A stretch of DNA of 61,227 nucleotides from Paludibacteraceae bacterium (lineage in GTDB: Bacteria > Bacteroidota > Bacteroidia > Bacteroidales > Paludibacteraceae): assembly GCA_024401455.1 (NCBI GenBank), contig JAKSLA010000016.1, positions 1 to 61,227 of the forward strand, given 5' to 3'. Below the pieces are notes generated by a model. It was not told where the DNA came from. It did no database searches and worked only from the letters and a program-made list of their open reading frames with translations. This document shows positions 2,749 through 46,751 of the stretch, in pieces (positions within the stretch are counted from its first letter, which is position 1; the number at the start of each line of letters is the position of its first letter). Made by a program: the position numbers and the translations under genes.

Positions 2749-2756
2749 TCGCCTTA

Positions 2757-12097: not shown

Positions 12098-12110
12098 TTA
12101 ATTGGGGGCT

Positions 12111-12155
12111 GTAGAGACGGTGTGCATGTAGAGACGGTGTGCACACCGTCTCTAC
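12111..12155. repeat. 28-base perfect palindrome plus half copy between serC and serA
   Basis: GTAGAGACGGTGTGC (12111-12125) is followed after two bases by GTAGAGACGGTGTG joined to its exact reverse complement (12128-12155). The palindrome would form a 14-pair hairpin in the serC-serA transcript. No T-tract follows, so it is not an ordinary terminator. Similar GTAGAGACG...CGTCTCTAC palindromes are known as dispersed intergenic elements in several bacterial phyla. Confidence 0.85.
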
Positions 12156-13370: not shown

Positions 13371-13432
13371 AAAGTTATCAACATTTTTCTTTTGCAAAAA
13401 ATAGTTTTTTAGAATTAAATTCTCTAATTTTG
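13371..13432 (+). promoter_or_regulatory. Probable promoter region of the giant adhesin gene
   Basis: TAATTTTG (13425-13432) matches the -7 box TAnnTTTG, 80 bases before the ATG at 13512. The nearest TTTG (13391-13394) is 30 bases upstream, farther than usual. AAAGTTATCAACA at 13371-13383 recurs exactly upstream of rpmH (46011-46023). The remaining 13200-13370 stretch shows nothing recognisable. Confidence 0.45.
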
Positions 13433-13511
13433 CAAGACCTACTATAGGGTTTAGAAGTGCCGTGTTTGCGGGACTGAAAATTGAAAAAATATATAGCGAA
13501 AATTGCTGAAA

Positions 13512-16500
13512 ATGAACAATATAAGAAGTAGAGTTATGAAAAAACGATTACTTTTAACATTCATACTGTCGGGCTGTTTGGCGGTCTGCAATCTTGTTAT
13601 GGCGCAAACGACCGTTCCAAAGAACGTCGATACACCGAACTTGGACTTCTCTCAAGGTGAGCAAGGCTGGGTCTATCAGACAGGTTGGTACACGACGTCT
13701 CTAAAAACAAGTGCAGATGAGCAAATTTATGTTTGGGATAAGACGTCCGAAAATAGTACTGCATCGATAAGAAACGTTGATATAAGTAACAACAAAAATG
13801 TGGCTTTGAGTGATAAACAAAGGGCTCGTTTTTGGCGTTTCTCTATGGATGAGGCAGACCGTATATTTTCATATAAGCCTGTGATGGTAATGCCCGATGA
13901 AAACAAGTCGGGTGTTATGCGTATCGGTCGCCCAGACGCATGGATTCCAACAAGTAATGGTATAGGTTCTGTATTTACTATAAAAGGTACGATGGGAGGA
14001 ACAGGTACTGTCGATTCGAAAGGACAGCCATTCAATCTTCCTGTGTTGCCAGCTGTTGGCCGTACGGATGTGAAGTGTTTTGACACGGGATGTGAATCTT
14101 ATATGTTTAATAAACTTAGCCGTACGGGTCCGGAGTGGAGCAACCCCTATTATACGGGAACGAACAAGAAAGCAACTCCTTGGGCAGGAGCCGAGCGTAT
14201 GTACTATGATTTCACGGTGACGGAGAACTCCACATTGCTTACCTACCGCTTCTTGGCCATTTTGGCTTCTCCTGAGTCTTCTACCAACCACTCGGAGAAT
14301 GGTTATCCGGAAATGACCGTTAATGTGTATGTCCAGAATGAGAACACGAATGAGTGGGAAATCTTGGAGTGTCAAGAGCACCATGTCATTGCCAGTGCTG
14401 CAAATGAGCCGCTCAATTATCCTGGTATGCAGCCAATGTATAGAAAGGAAGATTTGGCCAATAAGAATTTTATACCTTTCAATGCAGTGCAAGACAGATG
14501 GCAGGAATATGTGAGTGCTACATGTAACAATTCGACGAAACATAGTACTGAGCATAGAATTAGTACTAAAACGTCTGAAACTACTCCGACAAACTGTTTT
14601 ATTAATTATGCTACTATCATTATAGGAACGAATGGTCAATATACAGGCAATTATTATTCACGTTACCATTATTCTGGCTGGAGAACTCGTTTCGCCGATT
14701 TGAGACAGTATGTAGGTAAAAAGGTTCGTGTGGAGGTGTTGAACCATGACTGTATTATGAATGACTATCAAGATGCGGTTGTTGCGGGTGGTCACGCTTC
14801 TTACGGATATTTCCAAGCAGAGACGCGTAAGTTGGAGATTACTTACAAGAATTGTAGCAATGAGACCCCAGACCGATATGAATTGACTGCTCCAGAAGGT
14901 TTTGTGGCAGGAACATATAACGCCAGCGGTTCCACGTCAGAGTTTGTTAGTGGACGATGGGAGGGTAGTGCATATCAATGGTCCAGAAGTTCAGGAAGAA
15001 AGTTTGTTGTAGATCCTAATGATCCGACGAAAGTATATGTGCCTTCAACAGGAGCCAATGCACCTGTAACAGGAGAAACTTATTACTGTACGATTATACC
15101 GGACTCGGAAAATACCAGAGATGGTGGTAGAGAAGGTTGTGTAAAGTTGACATTGTCCACCAAGATGGATCCAGTTCGTGTTCGTCCAGCTGTTGAATGG
15201 GACTGGGCTTGTGGTCCTATTAGGGGAGGTGTAGTCGGTAAGTTTACAGACAAGTCAACCGTGATTGAGGGCCCAGACAAGATCAAATCTTTGCACTGGG
15301 AGTGGATAGGTGATAATGCAAAGAATTTCTCAACGCATGATGATGAAGTCATAGAGGGGGATGATCCTGTTTCGCACGAGTGGACATTCGATAAAGCGGT
15401 GGAGGAGTACAACTTGCAATTGACCGTAACCACCCAATGGGGTTGTACGTTTACGGAAACATTTACGATTAAAACCCCAGAGTTCCCAGAAGAGGGTTGG
15501 TTTAAGAATTCCTATGTTTGCGAGAATGATGAGTTCACATTGATTACTAATATACCATACGCAGGATATGAGTATAAATGGTATGAAGTGGAGAATGGAG
15601 CAGAGACACTTTTGCCTTCAACAGGTGCTTCTTATACGGCTATAAATGACGGTAAGGAGCATAACTATCGAGTAAAAGTGAAATCTACGACAGGTCTTGT
15701 TTGTACATACGAGCAAGATGCAGTGTTGAAACCACTGAAGAAACCGGTAGTCAAGGCAAAGAGTAACAAGACAGAGGTTTGTCCTGGTGAAGAGTTTGTT
15801 TTGTCGGTCGCTGCCGGAAATGAACAGTATAAATATAGTTGGGCGGAGTTGTTGCCAGAGGTTGTCAATGCAAACGGTTCTGCTACAAATTCCGTAGCCA
15901 AGTCGGGTAGTTATGACTATACATTGGTGGCTGATTTGACTTATACGTATGACAAGATTGAATACACTTGTAAAGGACAAGATGTGGTGACGGTGGTTGC
16001 CCGTGAAGTTCCTGTCGTGAAAGTTGACGAGATGGCTCCTGTTTGTTATGGAGAGGCGGCTGTGGCAGAGGCTTTGTTTGACCCGACGAAAGTGGTGCCA
16101 AAGAGCGACGGTTATTATTGGTCTATCAATGGCTCAGCAGAGAAGCAGGGAAGTTCACAATATGTAATTCCGGCTTCTGCTATGACTGCAGGTTCCAATA
16201 CGGTGAAAGTTCGTGCGGTTGACGAATTTGGATGTTCAGGAACGCATACGGGATCGGTCCGAATGAAGCAACCTATCGATCCAAGCATTTCGGGTATTGT
16301 TCCTATTTGTGCAGGAGACCTACTTAGACCGACTGCTTCTCCAACGGGTGCTGATAAATATGAGTGGAGATGTGGAACAATAGATATAGACGAGGTACAA
16401 TCTCCAATGTTCCGTGTCCCTGCAGAAGCAACTCAAATTGAACTTAACGTAACAAAGGAGGGTTGTTCAAAATCTACTGCTGTAGATATCACCGTAAAGG

Positions 16501-19500
16501 ACGCTCCAGTTATTCAAGTAGAGGGTAAGACAGATGTTTGTGAGCGCGAAGATGTCGAGTTCGTTTGTAAGGTGTTTAATAAGGTCTCTGGAAAGTTTGA
16601 GGAGAGCTCTAGTTGCTCTTACACATGGCGTAAGGATGGAAGACCTATCACGGCAGACGGAAACCGATTGAAGTTGCCTGCTATCTCTTCTGCTTACCAA
16701 GGTCACTATTCCGTAACTGCAACAAGTGGAGGAACGGGATGTGAAACGATTGAGGAGTTTGATTTGGTTGTCAACCCGCTTCCAATCGTAACGGCTTCAG
16801 CCAACAAGACAACCTTCTGTCCTCAGGACGAAGTCATATTGACGGCAGATGCATCCAACTCGCCAAATGCCATTTCAAGTTGGACATGGACAACCAAAGC
16901 AGGAACTTTGTATGGCGCCAATGTTGACTTCTTGGCTGGCACAGATGCAAGCAATTCGTCAGGAGACGCACAAGAGGCGGTTTTGAAGGTGATGGACGTT
17001 AACACTTGTGAAGCCGAGGTAAGGGTACGTTACACGGTTTATCCTGCTCCTACAGTTGATCTTGGTCCAGGCGATGCTATTTGTGCTTCGGGTGTCAATT
17101 CAGATTTCACCTTGAGTGCGACTGTGAGCCCTAACACCTCAGTTGTGTGGGAGACGCCAGACGCATCCAATGATGGCGCAACTACCACTTCTATAGTTGT
17201 TAAGGAGGGTGGTAATTACAAGGTAGTCGCAACAAGAGGAACTTGTAAAGCGCAAGACACAAGATATGTTGCCGTCAACCAAAATCCTACTATCACAAAA
17301 TCAGGTTTGGCGCAGGCCTGCGTAAATAAAACAACAGAGTTGACGTTTGGTGGTGCGAGAGAATATCAAATAGGTTCAAGAACATCTACTGACGGTAAGT
17401 TTGAGTTCAACGAGTCTCAGCCTACGACCTATAATTATACGGTAGTTGGTACGGATATCAATGGATGTCAATCTTCATTGCCATTTGAGGTCAAGTTCAA
17501 TGCACTTCCGGACGTATCGATTGATGCCGCAAGTATCAATTCGGTATGTAAGGGTGCTGCAGCAGAGATTACGGCAACATCGGCAGATGAGGCTAATATC
17601 AAGTCTTGGACATGGACACCAGGCAATTTGACGGGAAAGACCGTCACCCCTGTACTTCAAAACACTTCGACCTATACGGTAACGGTTAAAGACGGAAATG
17701 GTTGTTCTAACACGGCTATTCATACGGTAACCGTTACAGATATACCTTCGTTTGAAGTAACGGGTAATCCAAGTGTATGTCCAGATCAGCCTGTAACATT
17801 GACGGCCAACAATGCCAGCCTTGAATATAGTTGGCGTATGGTAGCCTCTGGCGTTACAACTGAGTTCGACAGCAAGAGTCCGCAAATCACATTCACTCCT
17901 ACGGGCGACTGTATTGTCTATGTAAAGGCGAAATCTACCTCAGGTAAGATTTGTGAGACAGAAGAGAAGATGGTACAGGTTACTCTTCTTCCTGCTCGTA
18001 TGTTGAGCATTGATGGAGCTCCTACAGGACCTATCTGTGAGGGTACGCAACTCACGCTCGTTGCGGGTGGTTTGCCTGCAGGCGAAGAGTACCAGTGGCA
18101 AGGTGGTCTCGGAACGGGAGCAACTAAGACTGTAACTCCAAATCCTGGTACGAAGACAACTTATACCGTTCTCGCTTCTACTGCAGCAGCTGGATCTTGT
18201 CCAGCAAAAGCATCGGTCGATGTTGTTGTTATTTCCAAGCCAAAAGTTAGAATTCAAAGTGCAGAAGATGTCTGCGTTGGTAAGGAGGCCAACCTTGAGG
18301 CAGTCGTTACATTGAATACTTATGAGGTAGATGGAGTTAGTTACGATGCTTCCGTTAAGAACTATGCATGGAATTCGGCTGACGGAACATGGTCAAGACA
18401 AGGTTCGGCTTACGACAATGTGACCACATCAGCAATTGAGGCGGCAACTACGATTACATTGGAGGTTACCGACAACTATAATTGTTCGAATACAACATCG
18501 CTCCCTATAGATTTGAAGCCAAAACCAGTCTTCTCTATTTCTGGTAATACTTCAGTCTGTGAAGGCGATCAAGTGGTGTTGACTGCTAATGGTAGCAGTA
18601 ATATCAACTTTACATGGTACGACAAGGATGGTGTCAAGCTTGCCGATGGTCCAAGATATACGTATTATCCAACAGAAAGCGGACAAGTGAAGCTTGTTGG
18701 AAATTTGAATGGTTGTATCGGCGAAGAGTATGCATATGTCACTGTGAATAGAAAACCACAACTCAATGTAGATGGTAAGACGGGTCTTTGTAAAGGCGAA
18801 AAGTTGGAGTTGACGGCGAGCGGTGCTTCAACTTATACATGGGGAGATGGAACAGTGGGTGCGAACTTTACGGATGAAGCGCCAATATCGACTACATATA
18901 AGGTAACTGGTACGGATGTCAATGGATGTCATGCTACACTAGATGTCCCTGTTGATGTTCGTAAAACTCCAATTGTCAAAATTCAAGGTCCAAACAATGT
19001 ATGTAAGGGAGAAACAGTTCATTTGACTGCTACGTCTGAAACTTGTACGTCATTTAGTTGGAATAATGGAGCAATAACAAGTGCTATTGATGTCCCTATT
19101 ACGGGAAGTGCAATTATTTATAAAGTGATAGGATATGATGAATATGGATGTCCTTCCGCAGAAGATAAAAAGCAGATTAATGGTGTAACATTGCCTGTTG
19201 TTAAAATTGATGGAAAAAATGAAATTTGTGCGGGCGAGTCAGTGACTTTAACTGTATCAAGCACGACTGCTACAAAATGGGAATGGTCAACAAGTGCTAC
19301 AACTTCTAGTGTTTCTATAGATAAAATAGAGAATGATTTAAACGTATGGGTAGATGGTACGTATATAAAAGATGATGCATCTTGTACAACAAGGGCGGAA
19401 TTTCATATATCGGTAAATCCTATACCTAATTTGTCAACAAGGGAAGGAGATGCTCCGGAAGTTTGTAAAGGAGAAAACCTTGTTCTACATGCGGTAGGAG

Positions 19501-37500: not shown

Positions 37501-40500
37501 GTGCTAACAGTTATGTATGGTCGTTGGCTGATGATAGAGACAATATCCTATCTAAGGCCTCTAAGTTGGAGGTTAACGTAAATGAGCAGTTGGAATATGT
37601 AGTTGTCGGTACAGACGTCAACGGATGTAAGAACGAGGCTAAGATTACAATTTCTCCTTACCAATATCCATCATTCGAAGTTGACCCTATTGTCCTTTGC
37701 TTCGGTGAAAAGGCAACCATGACAATTAAGAATCCATCTGAGTCTATGGCTTATGTATGGACAACGGGTGATACGACAGTTACAGGTCAGACATTCGCAT
37801 TCGAACCTGCAACTACGATGAACGTATATATCAAGGGTACTTCTTCAATGACCGGATGTGAGAAGAACGAGGTGGTTAAGGTTACGGTTAATCCATTGCC
37901 AGTCATCAAGCATGATGTCATCACTCACGGATGTCTTGGTGATGAAGTTCAAATCGTCGCTACGGGTGCTACTTCTTATAAGTGGAACGGCGTTCCTGGC
38001 GAGGCAACGATGGTTTATACGCCAATCGCACTTAAGTCTTCTTACAACATTGAAGGTACGGACGACAACAACTGTTCTTCTACGGAAACTGTTACAGTTT
38101 TGTTGAACAAGTTGCCTGATGTTCAAATCAATGGTGAGACTTATGTATGTAACAATTCAGAGGCAACTTTGAATGCGACGGGTGCTCAAAACTATAGTTG
38201 GAGTACAGGCGAGGCTGGTAAGGCAGTGATTAAGCCGATCATTACTTCTGCTGATATGGTCATTACAGTAATTGGTCAAGATAATAACCAATGTGAGAAT
38301 AAAGCTTCTATAACACTTCACGCAGTGGATGTTCCAGAACTTACTCTTGAGCCTGCTACAGTCTGCTTCGGTTCATCTGCTGATATGGCAGTCTTGACAA
38401 AGGCAGATAAGGTTCAATCTTACGACTACTTGTGGTCGAATGGAACAACTACTCAAACTGCAGTAGTTCGTCCGAATGCAATCGGTGAGAATTCAGTGAG
38501 CGTAGCGGTTACTGCCAACTATGAAGGTTCTGAGGGTACAGTTTCTTGTCAGAATACGGCATACTCTACAATCACAGCGATCAAGGCTCCTACATTGGCC
38601 GTCACTGGTGCTCTTTCAATCTGTTCAGGTGATCAATTGGAACTCACTGCTTCAGGTGCTAAGTCTTATACTTGGAACGGAGCAGCCGGCGAGGGTGAAA
38701 GCGGAGAAACATTGGTTGATTCTCCTAAGTCTTCTGCTCCTGCTTATAAGTTGGTCGGTACAGATGATTACGGATGTTCTTCTGACACAACAATCGTCGC
38801 TAAGGTTTATGATTTGCCTAAGGTGACAATCGAGGGTGACCCTCGCGTCTGCGTTGATGATAATGCCGCTCTTGTTGCTACGGGTGCTACTTACTACTCT
38901 TGGAGCGACGGAACGACAAATGTCGCTGAGTTCACTCCTCTTGTAACCGATACTACAACATACACGGTTACTGGTTACATCGTAATGGCAGAGAACAATA
39001 AGATGTGTCAAAATTCTGCAGACGTTAAGATATATGCTTTGAAGAGACCAACAATCAATGTTATTGGTCACACAGACACTTGCTACGGCAAGCCTTTGGA
39101 CTTCACTGCTACGGCAGAAGCTGACAATGCAATATCTTACTCATATAAGTGGACTGACGGTACAGCCGATGAGTCTGGTAATGTTAACTTGACGGTTACG
39201 TCTAACCAAGTTCTCGGTGTTACGGCAACTGCTTATTACGCGGCTACAGACAATGCTTGTAGTTCTACTAAGACAGTCAACGTCATCTCTAACCCATTGC
39301 CTGTATTGAGCGTGGCTGGTAAGACTACGATTTGTCAAGGTGATATGCTCGATTTGCTTGCTTCGGGTGCAGCAACTTACGAGTGGCTCAATGTTAAGAT
39401 GGGTGCAGACTTGCAGACGAAGCCTATGGGCTCTGTAACTTATACCGTTCTCGGTACAGACAGCAAGGGATGTTCTTCAACATTGGCAGTTCCAGTAAGA
39501 GTTGATACTCTTCCAATCATCAAGGTGGACGGTCCAAGAGCCGCTTGTGATAACTCAAGCGTAACGTTGACGGCAAGAGGTGCTGAGTACTATACTTGGT
39601 TGAATGATGGCGTTGTAAGTCCTACTTATACGGCTACCATCACGAAGGATATGACATTCAAGATCGAGGCTATTGATGGTAACAACTGTAAGACGACTAC
39701 TTCAGTTGACATTACATTGATTGAAAATCCTGATGTTCAAATTACAGGTGCTGATGAGGTCTGCCTCGATGGCTCTGTAACATTGACGGCTACTGGTGCT
39801 CAAAACTACAAGTGGTCAACGGGCGAAACAACAGCGTCAATCGTTGTTGCTCCAGAGGCAGTTGGAACAATGACAATCTCTGTTGAGGGTACAACCGGAA
39901 CTTGTACGGCATCTGCTTCTCATAAGATTACCGTTCACGGATTGCCACAGATTTTGATTGGTGGTCTCAATGAGATATGTGCTGGAGATCTTCTCCGCTT
40001 GGGCGCTTCGGGTGCTGGCGTTGAAGGAACTTATAAGTGGAACAACGGTACATCAGGTGACTCTTTGAAGGCTTACCCTTCAGCTTCTGGTACTTATACG
40101 GTAACAGGTACAGATGCTCATCAATGTAGCAGCACTTCAAATGTTTATGTGACAGTCAATGCATTGCCTCAATTCTCAATCAAGGGTGAGGCTAAGGTCT
40201 GCGATGGTAAGCAAACAACATTGACCGCTGTCGGTTCAGATGATATGACTTATGTATGGGATGATGGTAACGGTAACTTCACTTACTCTCCTGCTATCAT
40301 GCCTGTAGTTGATAAGGAATGGACATACAAGGTGACGGGTACTAACGCTAAGGGCTGTAAGACAACACTCACGAAGGAGGTTGCGCCTATCGCTTACCCA
40401 ATCGTAACAATCAGTGGAGAACCTTCTACATGTTACGGCGGTACCGTTACTTTGATGGCAAGTACAAATGGTGGCAATGCTTCTTATGTATGGTCTAATG

Positions 40501-43500
40501 GAACAAGAGGCAATACGATGACTTACAAGCCAGAGGTTAGCGGCGAGGTCTTCGTAGAGGCTACCGAAAATACTTGTACAACGAAGGAAACTAAGGCAGT
40601 CACAGTTAATCCATTGCCAACCCTTTCTGTTGACGGTGTGACGGACATCTGTGAGGGTGGTAAGGTTGACATCACTGCTTACGGTGCTCTCACTTATACA
40701 TGGAACGGTAAGGACGGTCTCGGTCAAGGTGGTAGCAAGTGGGAGGATACTCCAACCACCACTACTATCTATAAGTTGAGAGGTGAGGACGCTTTGGGTT
40801 GCGTAAGTTATAAAGACGTGACTGCAGTAGTTCACGCTAAACCTCAAGTTAAGATCTCTGGTGAGACGGCTGTCTGCGAGGGTTCTTCTACAGTCTTGAC
40901 TGCTTCTGGTGATGTTGCATCTTACATTTGGGATGACCCAGACTTGACGAAGGGTGCTACAATCACTCCAAAGGTTGAGGTTCCTGCTAAGTACACAGTA
41001 ACAGCAACAAGCGGTTACGGTTGTGTTGCTACTGCTTCGGTTGAGGTTACTCCTGTAGCTTATCCAGAGGTTATCGTCAAGGGTGCTGATCCAGTTTGTT
41101 CGGGAACACCTGTTACTCTCTGGGTTGAGGGTGTTGATGCTCAAGTATGGCAAGATGGTTCAGTTAAGCCATTCTACAGCTTCACTCCTGAGGCTTCCAC
41201 TTCGATTTATGTAAATGGAACTAATTACATCCAAGGTAACCCTGATAGAGGTTGTACAACTAAGAAGGTAATTAATGTAGATGTTCATCAGTTGCCAATT
41301 ATCTCATTCGCTGGCGACTCTGTCATCTGTCATGGTTCTGACGTCACTTTGACGGCTCAAGGCGCTGATACTTATGTATGGAGCGATGGAACAGTTGGTT
41401 CAATCTTGACGGCAACTCCGACAACCAACACTACTTACAAGGTTTACGCTAAGGATATTAATGGTTGCGAAAACAGTAAGGAGGTTTCTGTTAAATTGTA
41501 CGACGTTCCTTCTATCACCATCAAGGGTGAGAAGACCGTTTGTATCAATGAGGCGGCTTCATTGCTCGCAACTGGTAACTGTATCAACTATAAGTGGACA
41601 GAGGGTCCTTCTTCAGCATTGTATGAGCCTATCGTTTCTGCGGAGACTACATTCGAGGTTGTAGGTGAGGATTCACATGGATGTACAAACAAGGCGTACA
41701 TTACGGTATCTCCAGTTGAGAAACCAGTCCTCTCTACAGAGGGTAATACTTACGCTTGTATCGGCAATGATGTTACATTGACAGCTCAAGGTGCTAAGTC
41801 ATACGAGTGGGAACTTGATGAGACGGGCGAACTTCTCTCTAAGGCTTCAACCGTCATCGTTAAGATGGATCAAGCGAAGTCAATTAAGTTGACGGGTCAC
41901 AGAGACAACTGCTCGAATACGATTACTATTCCTTTGACAGTTAACATGCCTCCTGTAATCGGCATCTTGGGTAACACGGAGATCTGTCAGGGTGAGATGT
42001 TACAATTGACCGCAACGGGTGCTGTATCTTACTCTTGGAGCAACGGCAGCCACGATGAGACGATGACTTCTCAACCAATGTCTTCTACATCTTATAAGGT
42101 GGATGCGGTTGACGGTAATGGATGTCAAGCTTCTAAGATTGTTCCTATCGAGGTTTACAGCAGACCAACGATCGGTATCGCTGGACCTAACGCAGTATGT
42201 AAGGGTAGTCAAGTTACTCTCTCTGCTAACGGTAGCAGCACAATGTATCAATGGATTGACCCAGTTCAAAACGATACGTTCGTAGGTGCTCAATACACTT
42301 ATGTAATTAATGATCAGTTGATGTTCAATGTCATCGGTACTGACAATAGAGGTTGTAAGAATAAGGCGTCAATTTCAGTATCGCCAATCGCTTACCCTGT
42401 TATCACATTCGCTGGTGACTCTGTCGGATGTATCAACAATACGGGAGTCTTGGTTGCTCAAGGTGCAAACGAGTACTTGTGGTCTGATGAAACAAGAGGC
42501 GCTAATATGGAGATCCTCTTCGACAACAACAAGACCATCTTCGTAAGCGGTACTAAGAACGGTTGTACAACGAAGAAGGAGGTTAACATTACGGTTAATC
42601 CTCTTCCAGTCCTCTCTATCAAGGAGGGTAATACAAACATCTGTAAGGGCGATCGTTTGAACTTGGTTGTCGAGGGTGCTACTAACTATAGATGGAGTAA
42701 TGGAGTAAGCAACTCTACTGGTGAGTTCTCTGCTTCGCCATTGGTTTCAACAACATTCTCTGTAGTTGGTACTGACGATAACAAGTGTAAGGCAACACTC
42801 CCAATCGAGGTTACAGTAAACGAGTTGCCTAAGATTACAATCGCAGGTGATGCTCAAGTTTGTGAGGGATCTCAAGCATCGTTCACAGCATCGAGCCAAA
42901 GCAATATTTTGGATTACGTTTGGAACACAGGCGCATCCGGTGCTCAAACTCAAGCAATCGTAAACGAGACAACAGTCTTCGTGGTTGATGCTACAGACGA
43001 TAAGGGTTGTAAGGCTAAACAATCTCACACGGTTAAGGTAATTCCTTATCCTGAGGTTAAGATTTTGGGTAACCCAACCATTTGCGTCGGCGATCAGTTG
43101 AGCTTGGTTGCACAAGGTGCTGTCGCTTACAAGTGGTCTAACGGTTCAACTTCATCGTCTCTCAATACTTGGCCAACGGCTGGCGGCACTTACTCAGTAA
43201 GCGGTACTTCTAACGGATGTACATCGACAGCAAGCGTTGAGGTTCAAGTTCGCTCTTTGCCTAACGTCCTTGTAGGTGGTAAGACAGCATTGTGTATGGG
43301 TGATCAACTTGAGTTGCATGCACAAGGTGCTGAGACTTATACTTGGGGTGATGGAACAGAGGGAGAAACACTCATCGCTACACCGTTGACTTCTTCAACT
43401 TACAAGGTGACAGGTGTTGACGAGTACGGATGTAAGGCAACAGAAAATGTTCAAGTAACGGTTTACTCAAGACCTGTTGTCAACGTCTCTGGTGATGATA

Positions 43501-44909
43501 AGGTTTGTGCAGGTACGGCTGCTACTTTGGTCGCTTCCGGTAACAGTATCCTTTACGTTTGGGATTACAATGATATTTCCGGTACGACGATCAACCCAGT
43601 TGTGACCGAGAAGACAACTTATACCGTAACTGGTATCGACAACAGAGGATGTTCGAACAAGCAGTCGTTCACAGTCACTCCGATTGCAGCGCCTAGTTTG
43701 GCTGTCCTTGGTAAGACGCAGATCTGTCTTGGCGAGTCGGTAACATTGGTTGGTCAAGGTGCTTCTTCTTATGAGTGGGTGATGGGTAACCAAACCGTTT
43801 CTAACTCTGCGGTATATACGGTTAAGCCTGAACACGACATTGCGTTGTTCTTGTCTGGTACAACTCAAGTTTGTAAGTCAGATACGCAAATCAATGTTCA
43901 AGTAATATTGCCGCCTAACGTGGTAGTATATGGTGATAAGGAGGTTTGTCCTAACGAGGCATTCGTCATCACTGCACAAGGTGCTACCTCATATCGTTGG
44001 AGTACAGGTGATATCACATCATCTATCTCTTACGCTCCGATTTCATCTTCTACTTACTATGTGACTGGTTACGACGACTTCGGTTGTCAAACTACGGTTG
44101 AGTATCCAGTTAGAGTAAAGGATGTTCCTAAATTGGATATCGATATCTCGAATAAGATGGGTTGTCTCGGAACTCCAGACGAAGTATCGGTTTCTGTCAG
44201 CGGTGGTGTATTCTACACTTGGTCAAGTATTCCATCATTGCCTGAGTTGGGCGACGGTGCTCACGAGGATAGCTTGTTGCTCCTCATCGACGAGCCAACA
44301 ACACTCACTGTAGTGGGTAAGGGCGAAAATGGATGTGAGGCCTCTACAAGCGTTACAGTTGACATGTTGCCTCGTCAACCATTCTTGTTCGACATTAATC
44401 CTCACTTGATTGACGCTAACAACCCTACTGTATTGTTCAAGGGTAATTCTCCTATCAATGCAGAGTGGGCATGGACGCCTGCAATTGGCTTGAACGAGAT
44501 CAAGGGTAATGACTTGAAGTATCAATATGATACAGAGTCAATCGGTGACTCGGTAGTCGTGACAGTCCGTGCAATTGACGCTAATGGTTGTGAGTACACT
44601 GGTTATGACACAGTTTATGTTTGGAAGACATTCTGGGCGCCTACAGCGTTTACTCCTAATAAGGATGGTAAGAATGAGACATTCAAGTTCTATGGCGGTA
44701 ACTTCATCGATGAGTTCGAGTTCATCCTCTACGATAGACTTGGCCAAGTCGTATTTGAGGGCCACAGCATAGACGATGAGTGGGACGGTAAATACAAAGG
44801 CAAGGAGTGTCAGGCTGGCGTTTATGGTTGGGTTGTAAGCTACAAGGGAGTTTACGCCGGAGCAGAGCGTAGCGGTGAGCAACGAGGTTATGTCACAATC
44901 TTAAAATGA
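13512..44909 (+). CDS. Giant surface adhesin, about 10,460 residues, about 120 Ig-like repeats, T9SS type-B sorting domain (SprB-like)
   Basis: The frame is open for 31.4 kb, more than half the window. A signal peptide (MKKRLLLTFILSGCLAVCNLVMAQ) starts at the internal ATG 13536; I use 13512, and a TTG at 13503 is also in frame. About residues 35-450 are unique and may form a ligand-binding tip; about 450-655 look PKD-like. From about 659 to 10,290 I count 120 tandem Ig-like modules of about 80 residues on the plan VxIxGxxxVCxGxxxTLTAxGAxxYxW...TTYxVxGTDxxGCxxxxxxTVxxLP, like the CHU_C-associated Ig-like family; the two Cys of each module could form a disulfide. Modules are grouped in threes. 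A last PKD-like module precedes the gliding-motility-associated C-terminal domain (final about 95 residues: FTPNKDGKNE, LYDRLGQVVFEG), the type-B T9SS signal. A PorP/SprF partner overlaps its stop codon. Secretion to the cell surface and adhesion are inferred by analogy with SprB. Confidence 0.9.
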   Translation: MNNIRSRVMKKRLLLTFILSGCLAVCNLVMAQTTVPKNVDTPNLDFSQGEQGWVYQTGWYTTSLKTSADEQIYVWDKTSENSTASIRNVDISNNKNVALSDKQRARFWRFSMDEADRIFSYKPVMVMPDENKSGVMRIGRPDAWIPTSNGIGSVFTIKGTMGGTGTVDSKGQPFNLPVLPAVGRTDVKCFDTGCESYMFNKLSRTGPEWSNPYYTGTNKKATPWAGAERMYYDFTVTENSTLLTYRFLAILASPESSTNHSENGYPEMTVNVYVQNENTNEWEILECQEHHVIASAANEPLNYPGMQPMYRKEDLANKNFIPFNAVQDRWQEYVSATCNNSTKHSTEHRISTKTSETTPTNCFINYATIIIGTNGQYTGNYYSRYHYSGWRTRFADLRQYVGKKVRVEVLNHDCIMNDYQDAVVAGGHASYGYFQAETRKLEITYKNCSNETPDRYELTAPEGFVAGTYNASGSTSEFVSGRWEGSAYQWSRSSGRKFVVDPNDPTKVYVPSTGANAPVTGETYYCTIIPDSENTRDGGREGCVKLTLSTKMDPVRVRPAVEWDWACGPIRGGVVGKFTDKSTVIEGPDKIKSLHWEWIGDNAKNFSTHDDEVIEGDDPVSHEWTFDKAVEEYNLQLTVTTQWGCTFTETFTIKTPEFPEEGWFKNSYVCENDEFTLITNIPYAGYEYKWYEVENGAETLLPSTGASYTAINDGKEHNYRVKVKSTTGLVCTYEQDAVLKPLKKPVVKAKSNKTEVCPGEEFVLSVAAGNEQYKYSWAELLPEVVNANGSATNSVAKSGSYDYTLVADLTYTYDKIEYTCKGQDVVTVVAREVPVVKVDEMAPVCYGEAAVAEALFDPTKVVPKSDGYYWSINGSAEKQGSSQYVIPASAMTAGSNTVKVRAVDEFGCSGTHTGSVRMKQPIDPSISGIVPICAGDLLRPTASPTGADKYEWRCGTIDIDEVQSPMFRVPAEATQIELNVTKEGCSKSTAVDITVKDAPVIQVEGKTDVCEREDVEFVCKVFNKVSGKFEESSSCSYTWRKDGRPITADGNRLKLPAISSAYQGHYSVTATSGGTGCETIEEFDLVVNPLPIVTASANKTTFCPQDEVILTADASNSPNAISSWTWTTKAGTLYGANVDFLAGTDASNSSGDAQEAVLKVMDVNTCEAEVRVRYTVYPAPTVDLGPGDAICASGVNSDFTLSATVSPNTSVVWETPDASNDGATTTSIVVKEGGNYKVVATRGTCKAQDTRYVAVNQNPTITKSGLAQACVNKTTELTFGGAREYQIGSRTSTDGKFEFNESQPTTYNYTVVGTDINGCQSSLPFEVKFNALPDVSIDAASINSVCKGAAAEITATSADEANIKSWTWTPGNLTGKTVTPVLQNTSTYTVTVKDGNGCSNTAIHTVTVTDIPSFEVTGNPSVCPDQPVTLTANNASLEYSWRMVASGVTTEFDSKSPQITFTPTGDCIVYVKAKSTSGKICETEEKMVQVTLLPARMLSIDGAPTGPICEGTQLTLVAGGLPAGEEYQWQGGLGTGATKTVTPNPGTKTTYTVLASTAAAGSCPAKASVDVVVISKPKVRIQSAEDVCVGKEANLEAVVTLNTYEVDGVSYDASVKNYAWNSADGTWSRQGSAYDNVTTSAIEAATTITLEVTDNYNCSNTTSLPIDLKPKPVFSISGNTSVCEGDQVVLTANGSSNINFTWYDKDGVKLADGPRYTYYPTESGQVKLVGNLNGCIGEEYAYVTVNRKPQLNVDGKTGLCKGEKLELTASGASTYTWGDGTVGANFTDEAPISTTYKVTGTDVNGCHATLDVPVDVRKTPIVKIQGPNNVCKGETVHLTATSETCTSFSWNNGAITSAIDVPITGSAIIYKVIGYDEYGCPSAEDKKQINGVTLPVVKIDGKNEICAGESVTLTVSSTTATKWEWSTSATTSSVSIDKIENDLNVWVDGTYIKDDASCTTRAEFHISVNPIPNLSTREGDAPEVCKGENLVLHAVGADTYKWSANDEEGDILVLDGVMSEHSEQLTGYNSVGCQATINIPIKVNQAPKISIDAPKEVCKGSVASLTASGGVRYEWKHNHTPDVQIEEVINNSTIKYTVYGWDEKGCKGEGVAQIAGLNNPKITISGDSIICLGKAVMLTAESNISGTTWEWSDGVTKSSMYSATPTSDSKVFVTATANGICKVDKAVNITVNKLPNLNIQGNTTVCKGDELSLTATGALNYYWNEQLTNPFKVNLNNDATYTLRGVDANGCESSKSIPVFVQARPVVSIDGENSVCEGTSTTLTANADQDVAYLWDDDQHSNTQFISPDVDESRTYKVIVTDKTPLECTSSATKTVIAKKKPKVTITGNAPICDGETMNLKAEVTNSAEAAGPYVYKWSTATTDNISSISFVPTTQGQQVSVEVESSNGCIGKDDVVIDVLDRPSFQIVGSKRICQGDILHLEAKSIIPDAEYTYTWKKSIVGAVLEQQMLDPGEFDFEVTAVTKGQCPSVNEEVVHVTVVENPRMSIVGESTVCYGASTTLNAQAETHVTQVNYVWEYTENGETKSSLSENFTTPAINAPLTISVTGTDVDQCKAYATFTVSPVEAPRLEIEPIGFPVCDNGEVTLQGRNELDNTNSTHYEWSVAGTKVQEGALYTKTYNRTTTVRLSATKDNCTAFIDYEIPVYSSPSIDYTGVTDLCAGDQLTLTARKSTGDGDLKYTWQRSGVNPVDAAVYTETLNSFGTYDYKLYAYDDHGCKSNEVTVPVSVRRTPTVSITPSVNGVLEVCKGLTQELTAVGGEDGLTYKWSYNNLASKNITVPAVTDDAEYTVDVFDGKCYGNDKITVKPKDYPTISVDDQTVCLGSQSTLTPNLNADIESYTFQYGTEKAENVQDFDYTPTKESSVIYVYAKGKNGCETTSPVLVNITAVAQPEISIAGSRDICQNGELNLVPSVTNITSPIQYTWSDDFGHTYNGALNVTMANVGSFNYHLTAKTDDALKCSSKEDIVVNVHNLPALQIKGADVCADTLFTLSVQRTDTEKENNTSYVWKIDGSDDVLSTTEQLSTKISSPTTFVVEATDVYQCVGSATKTITTYGLPTITVTGNNPVCLNSPLTTLKAEVVGETRAVTYTWYDEKGVKISTSDVLPSYTPTTLGNKRLKVEAYVNNEKCVATAYVDVVVNALPDLSVVGNRSICKNTMVSLSGVDANNTSTTFEWIDINSNATPGTVFEKTFSSTGVQTYQLKGTDGNNCKNSIPVEITVKDLPNFSFKPLAPVCPNIDFTVELEGSDAYKYDWNNDGSYEGKHNSYKITQDTTITVVAKDENTNCESSLSTTVRVNTVPTISFVPTTATICEGEQVTVRALTGTGLAAAQNWLWSDGSTTDATTYTPVMTGENKLSVRGTNTGSGCYTDAEFVFNVVEKPVITIKETAACLNGNIKLEVDYAKSDNYEYSWNGGAWTDVKSFTAKADMGNTVPSADIRKYEYTVKVRNKSGLGCDNVLTGSVDVYPLPVLTITGEDVCDGSYADLRASGVANGTYNWYDASDVLLKENSATYGPRVTADLDLKVIATDAHSCQSEPQTISIKKLNKPVIQIEQPDPACVNSEVTLVDNGDSDERQWKVGTTTGTGVDFKFTPTASGNAYVTLDSKKNYIGRTGAIVTCASDQVRQLVSVKALPTVTLPSKVDVCPNTPANLNAVAAAANGTLSYTWTNLSTNQVTTDATATYTTPSMAVGSAQFKVEVKDDYCSNSAETEVVVRTLPEFEIQAPEVVCEGTDATLKLVCKTANTSFSVDWTNVQSSENLHSSLTQISDVVDNKFTYVAHVVDANNCEQDVTHNIKINKKPVVTISSSRNSVCANDVTGMILTANVTNPTEALSPYTYKWNGNNAWTSQNLDLASPQNDQVYSVLVTSVSGCSGEQSITITSVEDQPALPLPTGPFDICLGESINLSYASDARFKYSWKPENGIQVDGYNYTYLPSQPGDYKITITITDLNSASKCQDSRDVTVHVHALPADVTISGDEKLCKGSDAILTASASSSPVAYSWYGVNPETNPSASPLANGLTYRLTDIQTAKTIYLVGDNGYCKSYANHTITPVEKPVLAYTGDVEVCEGGSTTLIADGQSSGIQYAWEDQTPSAYTSINSGAVSLGQQKSIKLTGTKDNCTNELFVIVKANPIPQASVLAKEVCSDESFNLTYTLGSNGADVVSEKWYSGGELLGGHYDGVDHAWMTSFKTAVTTKMSMRLDVESSKGCKQSVPVEVTVKALPVVAVSGKLKVCEGTETTLSATGANSYEWYKVDGETATKIEGASEASLTVTVDGTQTYGVIGNDGCASTMKTATVSTLAYPTIVAEDVTVCKGADATLLATIADHSDATVSTVYNWSTGSTSPTTVVEKVNAQPIKETITGGYKYSDGTVCSKSATVTIKYQDLPTLSVSPAKPVICNGQSVEITLNGPSTSYKMDGVDVPNVGGIFKTTVAPTGTTTYNVEMTEAKAGGLTCSNSATFEVVVYEAPSILIQGDKYVCSGYSAILKASSEGGATNYKWTSNTNPSWSETGATIETHNITEETTFTVTADGPSSQNSCPATKTFTVIPLQRPVITAADKEVCAGLAVQLEAAATAADQSSMSYAWDAVEGSFAGPSISYRPSAPSGESFVTVTATAKYNSSTASCSSTKDVKVTINPSPVLSYVGKTDLCSGSQLRLEAQGITGVTSPYTWKNASNENVSSEAVLVVDNVTAKASVYKLFGQDAKGCTNEITITVTSQPKPIINVLGATSVCEGTYADLTLSGTDDAIYEWYEGDVQVSAVDNFKTLVNTEKTYKAVAKLLLDGGDYCTSEQDVVVTPLAKPVLSTTGSTICLGEEATLSASGADYYAWTFGSENTSGPNVNTFKIKPTTVASDANPHKVYLTASNVYNTALGQTTCSVNEVINVIVNELPSAEIAGNTTVCEGHEMTLTAVGPDENRTYEWILIATKEVLSNTKTLKRTPVYGESYQLNVKNTVTNCTNYAVVTPTIKAKPQIVVDGAKNLCDGSTISLTASGAYTYKWVLVGEDNKPGSTTLSSLSTYSDRIADKDVVLRVYGTTDQQCEDSVDVTIHSLAKPTFAIADVEVCHESEVQLVDTKAEADANTYQWIIGGVTLESDANTATYVASTRNTKTGRVVASKTYNTVEDGEVTCSNTSANFSITVLPLPTLAYTSPVVCDKQDLTITANGASTYAWYDAAKFDQDSAAARVSTEDALVLKNVDASLPLSYKLKGVSDKGCVSFKDVSVSLVQLPTITIVGDSVVCENTKTTFTAGGARSYEWKTADGTTSLAKSASYTVDVASDEVKYMVIGTASSGCVDTAYVTVHPQKYPVLADLHKSVCVNSPIELTLDGGDEGNYKWRFEGKDLASTSATETITPTIVGNDKPVYVTASKSYEVYGTSLECKTTKTVLLDVKHLPQLTLNGSSEVCIGTELNLTASNVYTDAEPTYYYWYSPIKNDTIARTANYAVAKMMNDSTYRYGAIDKNGCRAEATVSVSVVEKPTIAAAGDFYACEGTAASITVSGTNSYEWTNSNGVVVSTASTYKPVMNGDSVYTVVGQSNKGCYSEPLTVNAYALDKPTIDLQDQDVCLGGKVKFVAQVSIEDQNDIDEGVNYGYTWQGYPATTTNELEVTSNVAGTSVISFTGTALYTRTVNTVSRNYSCNTTARAELTTRALPVFTANVESVCVDKDVEFTAVSSESGMSYEWKNGSAVVTDGDADDSKLTTKLAAGSHTLQLIGTKKYTESLSCSKSIDVTVDVYELPEVAITGQFDICSGTNTKLTAVSPVGSVATYQWYEKNGTVLTEIDVETSATFVTPSLTASKTYVVVAKNATDCESQAEVTIDIIENPVINVVDKATCLNEPITFDVTNDNTADDATSYIWMANGNQFDGHKTATYTPTMAGTIEIQVVGTKAHTVAEGRGNAQTCKTTEHFQLLVRSLPELKVNGNTSVCYDKQLSLNAEGADIYYWAEVNTPNMHISESSELVVPNLKTDKSYILTGVDGFGCTSEKIVNVAVNDLPTIAVEGSLYACYNTATTLTAKGASSFEWRKGSKDGEIVSTDAVFSPVVTQDETYYVSGTDDNTCENFTTVTVHPLAFPTITGLDSVGICLGDETHLNAEVNAPGAYSYEYAWSTNADNYNSSETVKPLSEGITRVRFTGRAVYEFGIDKYKCSTDSIVEVRAYALPKLAQTGTNIVCEGYPVNIVASGVNAEGSYEWFDGQTKVADGNILNRTFDATTTLSLVGKNKYTTYKNVELECPATLENISIKVNEAQPVTVDGQLNVCEGLATTLTASGSKYYRWFNFDEDPDMTTSINGKPEYKNVVINNDVTFAVIGTDANTCSDTVKVKVNAKKNPTIELPVDPQTCINREIELSVQSSAADAVPADKYEWTINGRLMEEANGSSLNYTPTVQGNPSIRVRGSVSYSTEGDPITCYTEKSFQLVVNSLPKLVVDGSTSICKDSTLKLTASGADEYKWTFNGGVESSTATLEVSHLMQDQTYQLYGKSTITTCDVTIDVDVVVNELPTITIEGDRYVCMNGKAKLTAKGASTYVWKNKATEEVVATTAVFEPTVTEETTYVVIGNDAKSCGGVAEVTVAPLEYAVIKELRDTAICLGESITFAPVLEAENATFAYKWMADDMSPTYEVKPNAAGVTPINFRGSAIYLIDEKTYECPTNVIVRLTTYALPTITFDGTTEICKNLPLDVTAHGADTYVWKRGNVDVTGDVNDKLTIVPVESYEYTLTGTQNHTFTNMLGTTQIACSTSVVVPTTVYELPKVSVAGDLKICQDASTKLTASGAKDYMWYNEDDYTSVLASTAEFETEVSAVKTYDVVGTNTYGCSDTVSVTVSPLERPDLTMSDVAICLGQETQFVAPTTADAGSYVWSISGAKLASSDNVADVKPADYGASYGTKVVNLTASKIYTFDRQNDQNCSSKTSFNLVVNNLPTVSIDGNLIICPNAPLTLTAKGTSSSYEWLAEGTFTTSGEKNEVLNVEHVTAESRVYKVIGTDGNSCENSASVIVVKAETPTIEIAGEPRVCKGDNTKLTASGASSFEWFKIEADNSETSVNNGKSFNVAVSDTTVYKIIGTDNNTCEGNTTITVYPLSYPTITLQDTTLLCVGDDITLSASAEAANSSTIVYEWPAANVAGQTLVVLSQGEGTLSHELKATARYDKTSNTCSSTAVAKVISHKLPTLTASGISNVCYNDALDITAEGADTYTWSGEFSETGDKLQVTPTRSSEYKLQGWKTYVDGRYSKTCQNSIYVPTTVYSLPNVMIAGDRNVCKDAVAALVAEGAINYVWYDITNESEEPVKLSENPRISPVISADTKISLVGTDANGCKNNFDIDITAVDRPVITATDETICLGKSAKLLASAEGGSSYYYKWTEANGTTIDEAASIIVSPKTTQNYKVEVTATYDGMTTTCAASKTVTVHVNNLPEIEFDGATTVCQNDALDLTAKGAVDYTWDNVKGEGEHGEFFREVPATSVTYVLKGIDANGCENSINIPVTVNALPEVAITGDLNVCGGTKTTLTANNANTYVWSTGQTSTSIQVEVSGTETIWVEGTDLNKCKNRAEVEVSPYAYPNFSVRDTAICFGNSVEMGIASSESDYSYYWTAAGDTTYSSTLTVAPAQTTTVYVHGRSEATGCVTRKPLRIEVYTLPTLAAEGSKTICFGKNFNLKAKGADEYVWHSNLGDVIGDTYAEDLKSSQTITLEGTQNHNFGEAVIGCTNTLPVDVVVNALPVISFAGDVKVCENTPVSVTAKGANTYEWFDGTQTATITKAISDTTEFTVVGTDNNGCQGSGSITVYTLEPPTISAEDAALCLGESVMLSVNATAKGGIKYSYNWTSTNETSQTITVTPAAATSNYPVYVTATAAYDGTQTACTSQKEVKVEVYALPDVAYEGKTILCQGDELQLKALNADSYTWNGIPAEGENADMLIVVPSNSQSYTLVGTENHTFNGKNIACKTTVNVPVKVNELPTVTITGASAVCEGTSAIVNAQGANSYVWSLADDRDNILSKASKLEVNVNEQLEYVVVGTDVNGCKNEAKITISPYQYPSFEVDPIVLCFGEKATMTIKNPSESMAYVWTTGDTTVTGQTFAFEPATTMNVYIKGTSSMTGCEKNEVVKVTVNPLPVIKHDVITHGCLGDEVQIVATGATSYKWNGVPGEATMVYTPIALKSSYNIEGTDDNNCSSTETVTVLLNKLPDVQINGETYVCNNSEATLNATGAQNYSWSTGEAGKAVIKPIITSADMVITVIGQDNNQCENKASITLHAVDVPELTLEPATVCFGSSADMAVLTKADKVQSYDYLWSNGTTTQTAVVRPNAIGENSVSVAVTANYEGSEGTVSCQNTAYSTITAIKAPTLAVTGALSICSGDQLELTASGAKSYTWNGAAGEGESGETLVDSPKSSAPAYKLVGTDDYGCSSDTTIVAKVYDLPKVTIEGDPRVCVDDNAALVATGATYYSWSDGTTNVAEFTPLVTDTTTYTVTGYIVMAENNKMCQNSADVKIYALKRPTINVIGHTDTCYGKPLDFTATAEADNAISYSYKWTDGTADESGNVNLTVTSNQVLGVTATAYYAATDNACSSTKTVNVISNPLPVLSVAGKTTICQGDMLDLLASGAATYEWLNVKMGADLQTKPMGSVTYTVLGTDSKGCSSTLAVPVRVDTLPIIKVDGPRAACDNSSVTLTARGAEYYTWLNDGVVSPTYTATITKDMTFKIEAIDGNNCKTTTSVDITLIENPDVQITGADEVCLDGSVTLTATGAQNYKWSTGETTASIVVAPEAVGTMTISVEGTTGTCTASASHKITVHGLPQILIGGLNEICAGDLLRLGASGAGVEGTYKWNNGTSGDSLKAYPSASGTYTVTGTDAHQCSSTSNVYVTVNALPQFSIKGEAKVCDGKQTTLTAVGSDDMTYVWDDGNGNFTYSPAIMPVVDKEWTYKVTGTNAKGCKTTLTKEVAPIAYPIVTISGEPSTCYGGTVTLMASTNGGNASYVWSNGTRGNTMTYKPEVSGEVFVEATENTCTTKETKAVTVNPLPTLSVDGVTDICEGGKVDITAYGALTYTWNGKDGLGQGGSKWEDTPTTTTIYKLRGEDALGCVSYKDVTAVVHAKPQVKISGETAVCEGSSTVLTASGDVASYIWDDPDLTKGATITPKVEVPAKYTVTATSGYGCVATASVEVTPVAYPEVIVKGADPVCSGTPVTLWVEGVDAQVWQDGSVKPFYSFTPEASTSIYVNGTNYIQGNPDRGCTTKKVINVDVHQLPIISFAGDSVICHGSDVTLTAQGADTYVWSDGTVGSILTATPTTNTTYKVYAKDINGCENSKEVSVKLYDVPSITIKGEKTVCINEAASLLATGNCINYKWTEGPSSALYEPIVSAETTFEVVGEDSHGCTNKAYITVSPVEKPVLSTEGNTYACIGNDVTLTAQGAKSYEWELDETGELLSKASTVIVKMDQAKSIKLTGHRDNCSNTITIPLTVNMPPVIGILGNTEICQGEMLQLTATGAVSYSWSNGSHDETMTSQPMSSTSYKVDAVDGNGCQASKIVPIEVYSRPTIGIAGPNAVCKGSQVTLSANGSSTMYQWIDPVQNDTFVGAQYTYVINDQLMFNVIGTDNRGCKNKASISVSPIAYPVITFAGDSVGCINNTGVLVAQGANEYLWSDETRGANMEILFDNNKTIFVSGTKNGCTTKKEVNITVNPLPVLSIKEGNTNICKGDRLNLVVEGATNYRWSNGVSNSTGEFSASPLVSTTFSVVGTDDNKCKATLPIEVTVNELPKITIAGDAQVCEGSQASFTASSQSNILDYVWNTGASGAQTQAIVNETTVFVVDATDDKGCKAKQSHTVKVIPYPEVKILGNPTICVGDQLSLVAQGAVAYKWSNGSTSSSLNTWPTAGGTYSVSGTSNGCTSTASVEVQVRSLPNVLVGGKTALCMGDQLELHAQGAETYTWGDGTEGETLIATPLTSSTYKVTGVDEYGCKATENVQVTVYSRPVVNVSGDDKVCAGTAATLVASGNSILYVWDYNDISGTTINPVVTEKTTYTVTGIDNRGCSNKQSFTVTPIAAPSLAVLGKTQICLGESVTLVGQGASSYEWVMGNQTVSNSAVYTVKPEHDIALFLSGTTQVCKSDTQINVQVILPPNVVVYGDKEVCPNEAFVITAQGATSYRWSTGDITSSISYAPISSSTYYVTGYDDFGCQTTVEYPVRVKDVPKLDIDISNKMGCLGTPDEVSVSVSGGVFYTWSSIPSLPELGDGAHEDSLLLLIDEPTTLTVVGKGENGCEASTSVTVDMLPRQPFLFDINPHLIDANNPTVLFKGNSPINAEWAWTPAIGLNEIKGNDLKYQYDTESIGDSVVVTVRAIDANGCEYTGYDTVYVWKTFWAPTAFTPNKDGKNETFKFYGGNFIDEFEFILYDRLGQVVFEGHSIDDEWDGKYKGKECQAGVYGWVVSYKGVYAGAERSGEQRGYVTILK
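15475..44375 (+). repeat. Array of about 120 Ig-like coding repeats in three-module superrepeats
   Basis: Period about 240 bases per module and about 723 bases per superrepeat. In my module numbering, linkers YP or FP occur only at positions 1 modulo 3 (for example 28, 46, 58, 67, 79, 85, 91, 103, 106, 112, 115). Position 1 modules lack the GAxxYxW core and end in VTAxY...C...VxxLP; position 2 modules often carry a GTQNHTF-like insert before the second Cys; position 0 modules carry GTDxNxC and end in SPLxYP. At DNA level the copies are strongly diverged. Confidence 0.8.
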
Positions 44910-45916
44910 TGAATGAAATGATGAAAAAGTTAGTAGTAACGGTTCTTGGTTTGTTTATGGTGTTGTCCTCCTTTGCGCAGGACTACACCTTCACAAACCA
45001 CAATATAGTGCCATTTAGCCTTAACCCGGCTTTGATTGGTAACGCCAACGCAATCAGATGTGGTTTGAATTATCGTAGGCAATGGCCTACCTTGGACAAC
45101 CATTTCAACACGTTGCGTGTGTCCTATGACCAGAACTTCTATAAGCGTATGTGCTCGTTTGCCGCTTATTATATTTATGATAATAAGGGTCAGAGTGATA
45201 TGATCACCAACGAATTCGGTTTGGGCTACGGACATACGATGCGTTTGGCCGAGGACTTGGGAACGGAGTATTTCATTCGTTTCGGTTTGACCGCTTCTGT
45301 ATTCTACAATAAGATTGGTTCGAATCACACGTTTGGTGACCAGTATTGGGATGTGACAGGTCAAGGTGATGGACAAACCTCCGAGGAAGGCGTTGAAGGT
45401 GCTTCGGCAACATTTGTCGATTTCGGTTTCGGTGCGGCATTCGTCATTTCAAATATGTTGACGGTCGGTGCATCCGTTTCTCACATCGGCCAGCCTTATA
45501 GTGGTATCGTCAATGATCAGGACGAGGTGCTTTACCGTAAGTATGCGGTCCACGCTGCTTATGTGCGCGACTTGGAGTCTGCAAACGGTTTGTGGGGTCG
45601 TACGGAGTTGTCTGATAAGTCACTCTTCGTTAATGCTAATTTCCAATATCAGGAACCGTTCTATAAGACGGCTTATCTTGGTGCCGGTGTGATGATCTCC
45701 CCAATCATTGGAGGTTTGGCCTACAAGCGTGCTATAGATGGTGGCATCAATACCGTTTCATTCATGTTGGGAGGTACCTACAAAGGTCTTCAGGCATATT
45801 ATGTCTATGACCTTTATACTTCTCATAAGGGTAATGGTTCATGGTCTCACGAACTTTCATTCATCTATATTTATCAACGTCACGAGCGTTATCCTTGTCC
45901 GGTTGTTTACTGGTAA
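44906..45916 (+). CDS. PorP/SprF-family outer-membrane protein, partner of the giant adhesin
   Basis: The 336-residue protein has a signal peptide (MKKLVVTVLGLFMVLSSFAQ) and a body of alternating hydrophobic strands typical of a beta-barrel; FSLNPALIGNANAIRCGLNYRRQW near residue 35 and the repeated F-G-x-G strands match the PorP/SprF family. In Flavobacterium, SprF is needed for secretion of SprB, and members generally follow genes with type-B sorting domains. Here the start ATG overlaps the stop of the giant gene as ATGA, implying translational coupling. In-frame ATGs at 44918 and 44921 are alternative starts closer to the signal peptide. Expected role: outer-membrane docking or export of the adhesin. 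Confidence 0.88.
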   Translation: MMNEMMKKLVVTVLGLFMVLSSFAQDYTFTNHNIVPFSLNPALIGNANAIRCGLNYRRQWPTLDNHFNTLRVSYDQNFYKRMCSFAAYYIYDNKGQSDMITNEFGLGYGHTMRLAEDLGTEYFIRFGLTASVFYNKIGSNHTFGDQYWDVTGQGDGQTSEEGVEGASATFVDFGFGAAFVISNMLTVGASVSHIGQPYSGIVNDQDEVLYRKYAVHAAYVRDLESANGLWGRTELSDKSLFVNANFQYQEPFYKTAYLGAGVMISPIIGGLAYKRAIDGGINTVSFMLGGTYKGLQAYYVYDLYTSHKGNGSWSHELSFIYIYQRHERYPCPVVYW

Positions 45917-46708: not shown

Positions 46709-46751
46709 TAATGTGGTTCTTGTTCGCAAGACTTTAAAAATTGACGGGAAA

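Follow-up and report, generated by a model that had tools for sequence, protein, structure and literature searches.

Does a frame of 31.4 kb in an uncultured gut bacterium encode one intact surface protein, and what would such a protein do for the cell? The frame lies in a stretch of 61,227 nucleotides (hereafter the window) from an uncultured Paludibacteraceae lineage whose nearest known relatives come from the guts of grazing animals; the genome is a draft in 119 contigs with 90.3% completeness and 5.28% contamination. The explanation that we favor, with a probability of about 0.72, is an adhesive rod of fixed length that is anchored by a PorP/SprF-family protein and carries an exchangeable tip.

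An uninterrupted frame with a conserved start

On the + strand of the window a single uninterrupted frame extends over 13503..44909 and would encode 10,468 aa if begun at TTG 13503 or 10,465 aa if begun at ATG 13512. The latter start had been chosen in a first-pass annotation, which read the frame as an intact protein of about 10,460 residues. The frame is indeed intact, and its start is better placed at ATG 13536. The DNA matching ATG 13512 in the two orthologues described below has no ATG, 'AGTTATGAAAAAACG' at 13536 is common to all three genes (3/3), and each of them has a TAnnTTTG box, which we take to be the Bacteroidota promoter motif, 111-112 nt 5′ of the start. Because start context and upstream box are kept in 3/3 genes and ATG 13512 is absent from both orthologues, 13536 is likely the real start, giving a gene at 13536..44909 (+) for a giant of 10,457 aa. 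In the window the putative -7 box occupies 13425..13432 (+), 111 nt 5′ of the ATG. The predicted signal peptide (MKKRLLLTFILSGCLAVCNLVMAQ) is encoded with the start codon at 13536..13607 (+); read by eye, the translation begins in a signal-peptide-like manner with KKR, a hydrophobic core and A-Q, in line with the first annotation. Computed from 13512, the giant has a mass of ~1.12 MDa, a pI of 4.6 and 262 cysteines.

Neighboring genes named serC, serA, aroA, aroB, UppS, BamA, Skp and ATPase in this work were assigned by eye from translations. Further 5′ of the giant, at 707-7283, the window holds GH39/CBM6, GH43 and pectate lyase genes, the pectate lyase bearing a T9SS Por tail, and these fit the lifestyle of a presumptive plant-fibre degrader. 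The serC-serA junction (12110-12143) contains a perfect 17-nt tandem repeat.

A type-B sorting tail with an adjoining carrier gene

The last domain of the giant, encoded at 44640..44900 (+), scores as a type-B T9SS C-terminal sorting domain with CHU_C (PF13585; 56.9 bits, cut-off 27) and TIGR04131 (45.8 bits, cut-off 35). The next gene, at 44906..45916 (+), overlaps the stop of the giant by 4 nt and encodes a putative carrier-anchor of the PorP/SprF family (TIGR03519, 124.8 bits, cut-off 90.55), so that both the tail and the immediately following PorP/SprF gene reported at first pass hold up. PorG, a T9SS component, is encoded 0.8 kb 3′ of this gene, at 46713..47450 (+; NF052316, 162.2 bits, cut-off 130). 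Since SprA (2515.9 bits) and GldK (576 bits) also exceed their cut-offs elsewhere in the genome, these profile scores indicate that it encodes a T9SS. Tail, secretion system and overlapping PorP/SprF gene together mark the giant as a predicted type-B cargo, a class that is described as secreted and anchored via a cognate PorP/SprF protein, often encoded adjacently (PMC9143113, PMC12618676).

The carrier has a single cysteine in its C-tail (CPVVYW). Exactly one cysteine occurs within the last 22 residues in 33/33 PorP relatives, 32 of which keep the form C-P-x-x-Y-W. SprF is reported to be disulfide-linked to GldK via a Cys-X-Cys pair in its C-tail, and the lone cysteine of Porphyromonas gingivalis PorG to be required for T9SS function (PMC12635249). 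Like the latter protein, the PorG of the window has one cysteine in its C-tail, as read by eye. The carrier differs from SprF in having one cysteine in place of the pair; this cysteine is a possible coupling point to a GldK track.

A shaft of 121 diverged modules

Between an N-terminal tip and the sorting tail, an array of two-cysteine Ig_7 modules occupies 15180..44393 (+), as delineated by cysteine spacing, the Ig_7 profile and AlphaFold2. With a module joint counted wherever a Cys-to-Cys gap measures 23-28, the window giant has 121 modules, in agreement with the approximately 120 Cys-anchored Ig-like modules first proposed; their mean length is 80 aa, and the earliest of the array are degenerate. 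A Pfam scan of the giant returned Ig_7, PKD_4 and additional weak matches. When the giant was scanned in two pieces of ~5,000 aa each, Ig_7 (PF19081) scored 243.2 bits in one and 328.5 bits in the other, with just 5 stretches per piece passing the threshold individually. One four-module block was modeled by AlphaFold2 with a pLDDT of 97 from an alignment of 63 rows. The modules are further ordered into a three-module super-repeat: for lags of 3, 6, 9 and 12, similarity is 25.37 score units above that for the remaining lags (to 11), a value reached in none of 2000 shuffles (mean 0.03, sd 1.15, maximum 5.65). Identity between modules averages 28%, and a search for exact 20-mer duplicates across the 31.4-kb gene found none. 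Repeat collapse is therefore unlikely, as short reads could place modules that differ to this extent.

Module number is constant within the genus

The genus is represented by four draft genomes in 90-240 contigs, that of the window and three others (G001, G002 and G003). A search of related genomes, which had been suggested with the first annotation, recovered the giant in two of these three, G001 and G002, at 10,533 and 10,503 aa. In both it stands directly 5′ of PorP, PorG, UppS and BamA as a block (UppS and BamA recognized by eye). In G001 serA and serC lie 5′ of the giant as they do in the window, and the contig of G002 stops before that point. Searches of the G003 assembly found neither the giant nor the adjoining PorP, PorG and UppS genes, the UppS search having been run without a positive control. 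Loss of the giant from G003 was considered and rejected: PorG and UppS are also missing there, so an assembly gap is the probable cause. UppS is essential.

In the interval between serA and the giant, G001 carries arrays of a ~104-nt repeat with palindromic parts, which flank a 448-aa frame recognized by eye as ATPase-like. The same frame and repeats precede the giant in G002 (loci of this observation, L029:4900-9000 and L030:1-2700); the frame is absent from the window.

The Cys-gap rule yields 121 joints in each of the three giants, and the largest indel in their alignment is 19 residues. For 119 of the 121 window modules, the best match in either relative is the positional partner. Both relatives keep 255 of the 262 cysteines; across the three giants 97% of Cys and 92% of Trp residues are conserved, compared to 41-80% for the remaining residues. 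The window giant is 64% identical to either relative, and synonymous sites are nearly saturated (pS 0.64). The dN/dS ratio is 0.20 overall and ranges from 0.025 to 0.375 across 18 blocks in each of three comparisons. These alignments show an array that has stayed fixed across the genus and is under purifying selection throughout, and so conserved a frame is no product of chance. That 121 modules have been kept as synonymous sites approached saturation suggests that length itself is under selection. Repeat adhesins habitually vary copy number, and the constant module count runs counter to that habit.

The tip varies like a cassette, probably an exchangeable one

Conservation is uneven along the gene. 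Identity between the window giant and one of its relatives (g1) is 37-57% over the first 2,500 alignment columns and climbs to 84% toward the C terminus. The N-terminal tip, residues 33-556 numbered from 13512 (13608..15179, +), matches no family in the window copy, and its homologues have PKD and Ig_7 domains within the aligned stretch. AlphaFold2 modeled it poorly (mean pLDDT 59.5). Fold matches to this model were weak and of jelly-roll, MAM or CBM-like type (MAM, CBM27, CBM61 and others), with no match at E ≤0.001 in that search. The tip opens with NLDFSxG, which we take to be typical of carbohydrate-binding and MAM jelly-roll domains. Given a model of this quality, a binding role is something that we infer, and a binding domain is at most plausible.

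The tips of the other two giants of the genus, g1 and g2, are ~50% identical, and the best shaft blocks of the same pair reach 99%; by comparison, their paralogous tips are 83, 79 and 67% identical. At the DNA level the two are identical over 203 nt 5′ of the gene and the first 22 nt inside it, fall to 62% over alignment columns 20-1620 (1,432 codons compared), and return to 91-100% from approximately column 1640, which corresponds to window residue 1513. Synonymous difference in 150-column bins of the giant ranges from 0.00 to 0.75, and five downstream neighbor genes have dS values of 0.18-0.54. In this genus the tip behaves as an allelic, probably exchangeable cassette. The g1/g2 mosaic could in part reflect strain chimerism of MAG assembly; both tip alleles exist regardless. 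A tree of 13 tips pairs the g1 and g2 giants (support 89/92) and places the window giant in a separate group (84/94), neither node being starred.

Two further ideas were rejected. The dN/dS values of 0.13-0.25 in the first two blocks, where synonymous sites are near saturation, do not show positive selection on the tip, and a general N-to-C identity gradient fails because giants of another genus, g26, show no steady gradient. Since the g26 giants keep their length without such a gradient, a variable tip is not general across the family.

Giants and tip relatives elsewhere in the family

A first contig scan with the tip as query confirmed no relative; a tip search of 358 family genomes gave matches in 102. 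Frames of 6,028-10,533 aa occur in congeners and other genera. Against this background, and with a 39,678-aa giant ORF with mapped peptides published from Omnitrophota (PMC10066038), calling the window protein one of the largest in bacteria was an overstatement. Apilactobacillus kunkeei Giant1-5 (PMC12863079) and the Omnitrophota giants are likewise very large bacterial proteins linked to the surface or to attachment; they belong to other lineages, and the available text of the two sources mentions no T9SS tail (PMC12863079, PMC10066038). Our literature search found no published work on Paludibacteraceae giants.

Genus g26 has two triplets of giants (8,339/8,283/8,327 and 7,981/8,030/7,792 aa) that are collinear at 41-65% identity with no gap above 25 residues. 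By the Cys rule they have 84-86 and 79-85 joints; our view that module number is equal within each triplet draws on the lack of any gap as long as a module, and not on these counts. When eight g26 giants were divided into two ortholog groups with four members each, G322C83 (33-34% identity, gaps to 123) and G311C21 (36-38%, gaps to 51) did not fit. The three-module period recurs in 3/3 g26 giants tested, at lags 3 and 6. It was not seen in two further giants with adjoining PorP genes, G328:C18 (L055-L056; 9,016 aa) and G304:C81 (L061-L062; 6,028 aa), in which just 24 and 22 modules were testable. Regular Cys joints are scarcer in these two (47 and 39), which may represent another type of giant within this family.

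The tip domain also occurs outside the giants. Pairs of a ~1,500-aa type-B protein and a PorP in Paludibacteraceae (e.g. G000:C87) share the tip-domain family at ~32% identity, have a type-B tail (51.5 bits) and a PorP related at 50%, and differ in that the protein is ~7x shorter than the giant. G001 and G002 each encode two neighboring proteins of ~4,330 and 3,180-3,190 aa, and a single one of 4,257 aa is encoded in G003 (L033, L035-L038); all carry the tip domain, once or twice, and have a different tail. The tip search found no protein of this kind in the window's genome.

The shaft resembles the GhpA grappling hook

Among the 50 fold matches listed for the four-module model, the top six in the PDB are all pieces of GhpA from Aureispira (TMq 0.64-0.70), and the remaining 44 have TMq ≤0.36. 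GhpA (Aureispira sp. CCB-QB1; PDB 9flp, 9flu-9fly) is thus the closest solved structure to the shaft of the giant; applied to GhpA, "shaft" is our own word, and the PDB titles refer to neck, base and fragments. A profile of the shaft also matched GhpA with 1046.9 bits over 16 stretches, and in the alignments printed both module cysteines are aligned. Three pairs of these stretches start 249 residues apart (1825/2074, 2289/2538 and 3080/3329), and other neighbors are spaced differently; in our own reading, 249 residues correspond to about three modules and resemble the period of the window giant. At the sequence level, GhpA was not among the matches listed by a tip profile search (E ≤1), and the tail matched that of GhpA at an E of 0.03, no better.

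GhpA is a 5,898-residue protein with a heptameric assembly, and a hook protein is reported to be secreted by the T9SS (PMC13319060, PMC11205867). It shares with the 10,457-residue window giant the T9SS route ascribed to a hook protein (PMC11205867), a long chain of two-Cys Ig_7-like modules, and, in part, the 249-residue recurrence. Of the features that define GhpA, tandem Ig_7-type modules are present in the giant, and a GhpA-type N-terminal head was not recovered by sequence, the tip model being poor. We therefore call only the shaft GhpA-like, as supported by model and profile, and do not call the whole protein a GhpA, since the tip profile has no GhpA match.

For another hook protein, 49 domains are reported to span 180 nm, or ~3.7 nm per domain (PMC13319060). 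By this yardstick 121 folded modules would reach about 0.45 micrometre; the micrometre span first proposed would apply to an unfolded chain only.

A model, and its alternatives

The reading that we favor is as follows. The gene would be expressed as a single-chain surface fibre of ~1.1 MDa, exported by Sec and then, via the type-B C-terminal signal, through the T9SS translocon. The product of the next gene, the PorP/SprF protein, would collect the giant and, as we infer from work on F. johnsoniae and P. gingivalis, keep it in the outer membrane by way of the carrier's barrel, the N terminus facing outward. The 121 Ig_7 modules would then form a rod of ~0.45 micrometre whose constant module number acts like a ruler, and the N-terminal domain would be the variable, exchangeable end that makes contact, binding to plant fibre, to host material or to other cells.

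The rod might also move. SprB of F. johnsoniae, named as an analogue at first pass, is likewise a giant type-B T9SS adhesin with an adjoining PorP/SprF carrier gene (PMC9143113, PMC12618676), a likeness of description; SprB has 669 kDa (PMC9143113) and the window giant ~1,120 kDa. SprB stands as an analogue, with GhpA as the closest solved relative. A giant that rides an internal track via PorP, and so powers gliding over plant fibre or mucus or contributes to it, is a possible but tentative reading. Our search for gliding genes covered GldB, GldD, GldH and GldJ. Among the four genus genomes, GldD and GldH exceed their cut-offs in all and GldB in three, and the window's genome has a GldJ-like protein of 391.2 bits, a score to be set beside the 79 bits that its GldK receives from the same model. 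The coupling reported for SprF and GldK, the PorG precedent (PMC12635249) and the C-tail cysteine of all 33 PorP relatives point the same way. Yet the GldJ-like protein is below its cut-off of 458.2, a profile search found no GldB in G002, the control Bacteroides ihuae has GldH over and GldB weakly below cut-off, the carrier lacks the second cysteine of SprF, and some type-B proteins are described as static (PMC12618676). Movement of the giant, judged from gene content, is thus no more than possible. The first-pass annotation had preferred adhesion over gliding; an adhesin role is plausible, and the argument that it drew from the rarity of gliding in Bacteroidales is weak, GldB, GldD, GldH and a GldJ-like protein being present. 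The GldJ-like protein (L097, G000:C55) has a lipobox-like start, and at L099 (G000:C43) a PorP-like gene lies ahead of the GldK gene, both by eye; with these two loci, an uncultured group of gut Bacteroidales has candidate genes of the gliding type.

In a special version of this fibre, copies would twist into an oligomeric shaft with a gripping head that snares cells as a hook or rope. Such a version would account for GhpA heading both fold and profile matches with its module cysteines aligned, for the resemblance between the three-module period and the 249-residue spacing, and for the parallel with a heptameric GhpA and a T9SS-secreted hook (PMC13319060, PMC11205867). It is doubtful, however, as the tip has no GhpA match, the tail match stops at E 0.03 and the period was not seen in G328 and G304. 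A static, fuzzy coat or biofilm matrix would equally well explain why length is constant and the outer end diverges, with tip variation serving escape from phage or immunity instead of target choice, and binding by the tip is only putative; the tip family also caps shorter paralogues with another tail, and this hint of an independent function makes such a coat improbable. As for an artefact of assembly or annotation, the genomes are drafts in many contigs, but the absence of exact 20-nt repeats, the close agreement in length and the shared module order of two other assemblies, and purifying selection along the whole gene make it very improbable. An adhesive rod of fixed length, anchored by PorP and carrying an exchangeable tip, remains the explanation that we prefer.

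An unlikely combination of these ideas is worth stating for its consequence. If ruminant-gut Paludibacteraceae carried a 121-module, GhpA-like oligomeric hook or rope on a PorP/GldK track with exchangeable tip cassettes, swapping ~1,500 5′ codons would re-aim the cells of one lineage at other prey, partners or fibre with shaft length unchanged.

The giant gene is thus intact and conserved, and its predicted product is a type-B T9SS surface fibre with a shaft akin to a grappling hook, a constant length and a probably exchangeable tip, its function being deduced. Type-B T9SS giants with Ig_7 repeats, widely annotated and little understood, are thereby tied to a solved grappling hook in gut Bacteroidales. 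The Gld genes make gliding of such bacteria a testable question, and the tip cassette offers a direct handle on the binding target of the fibre.
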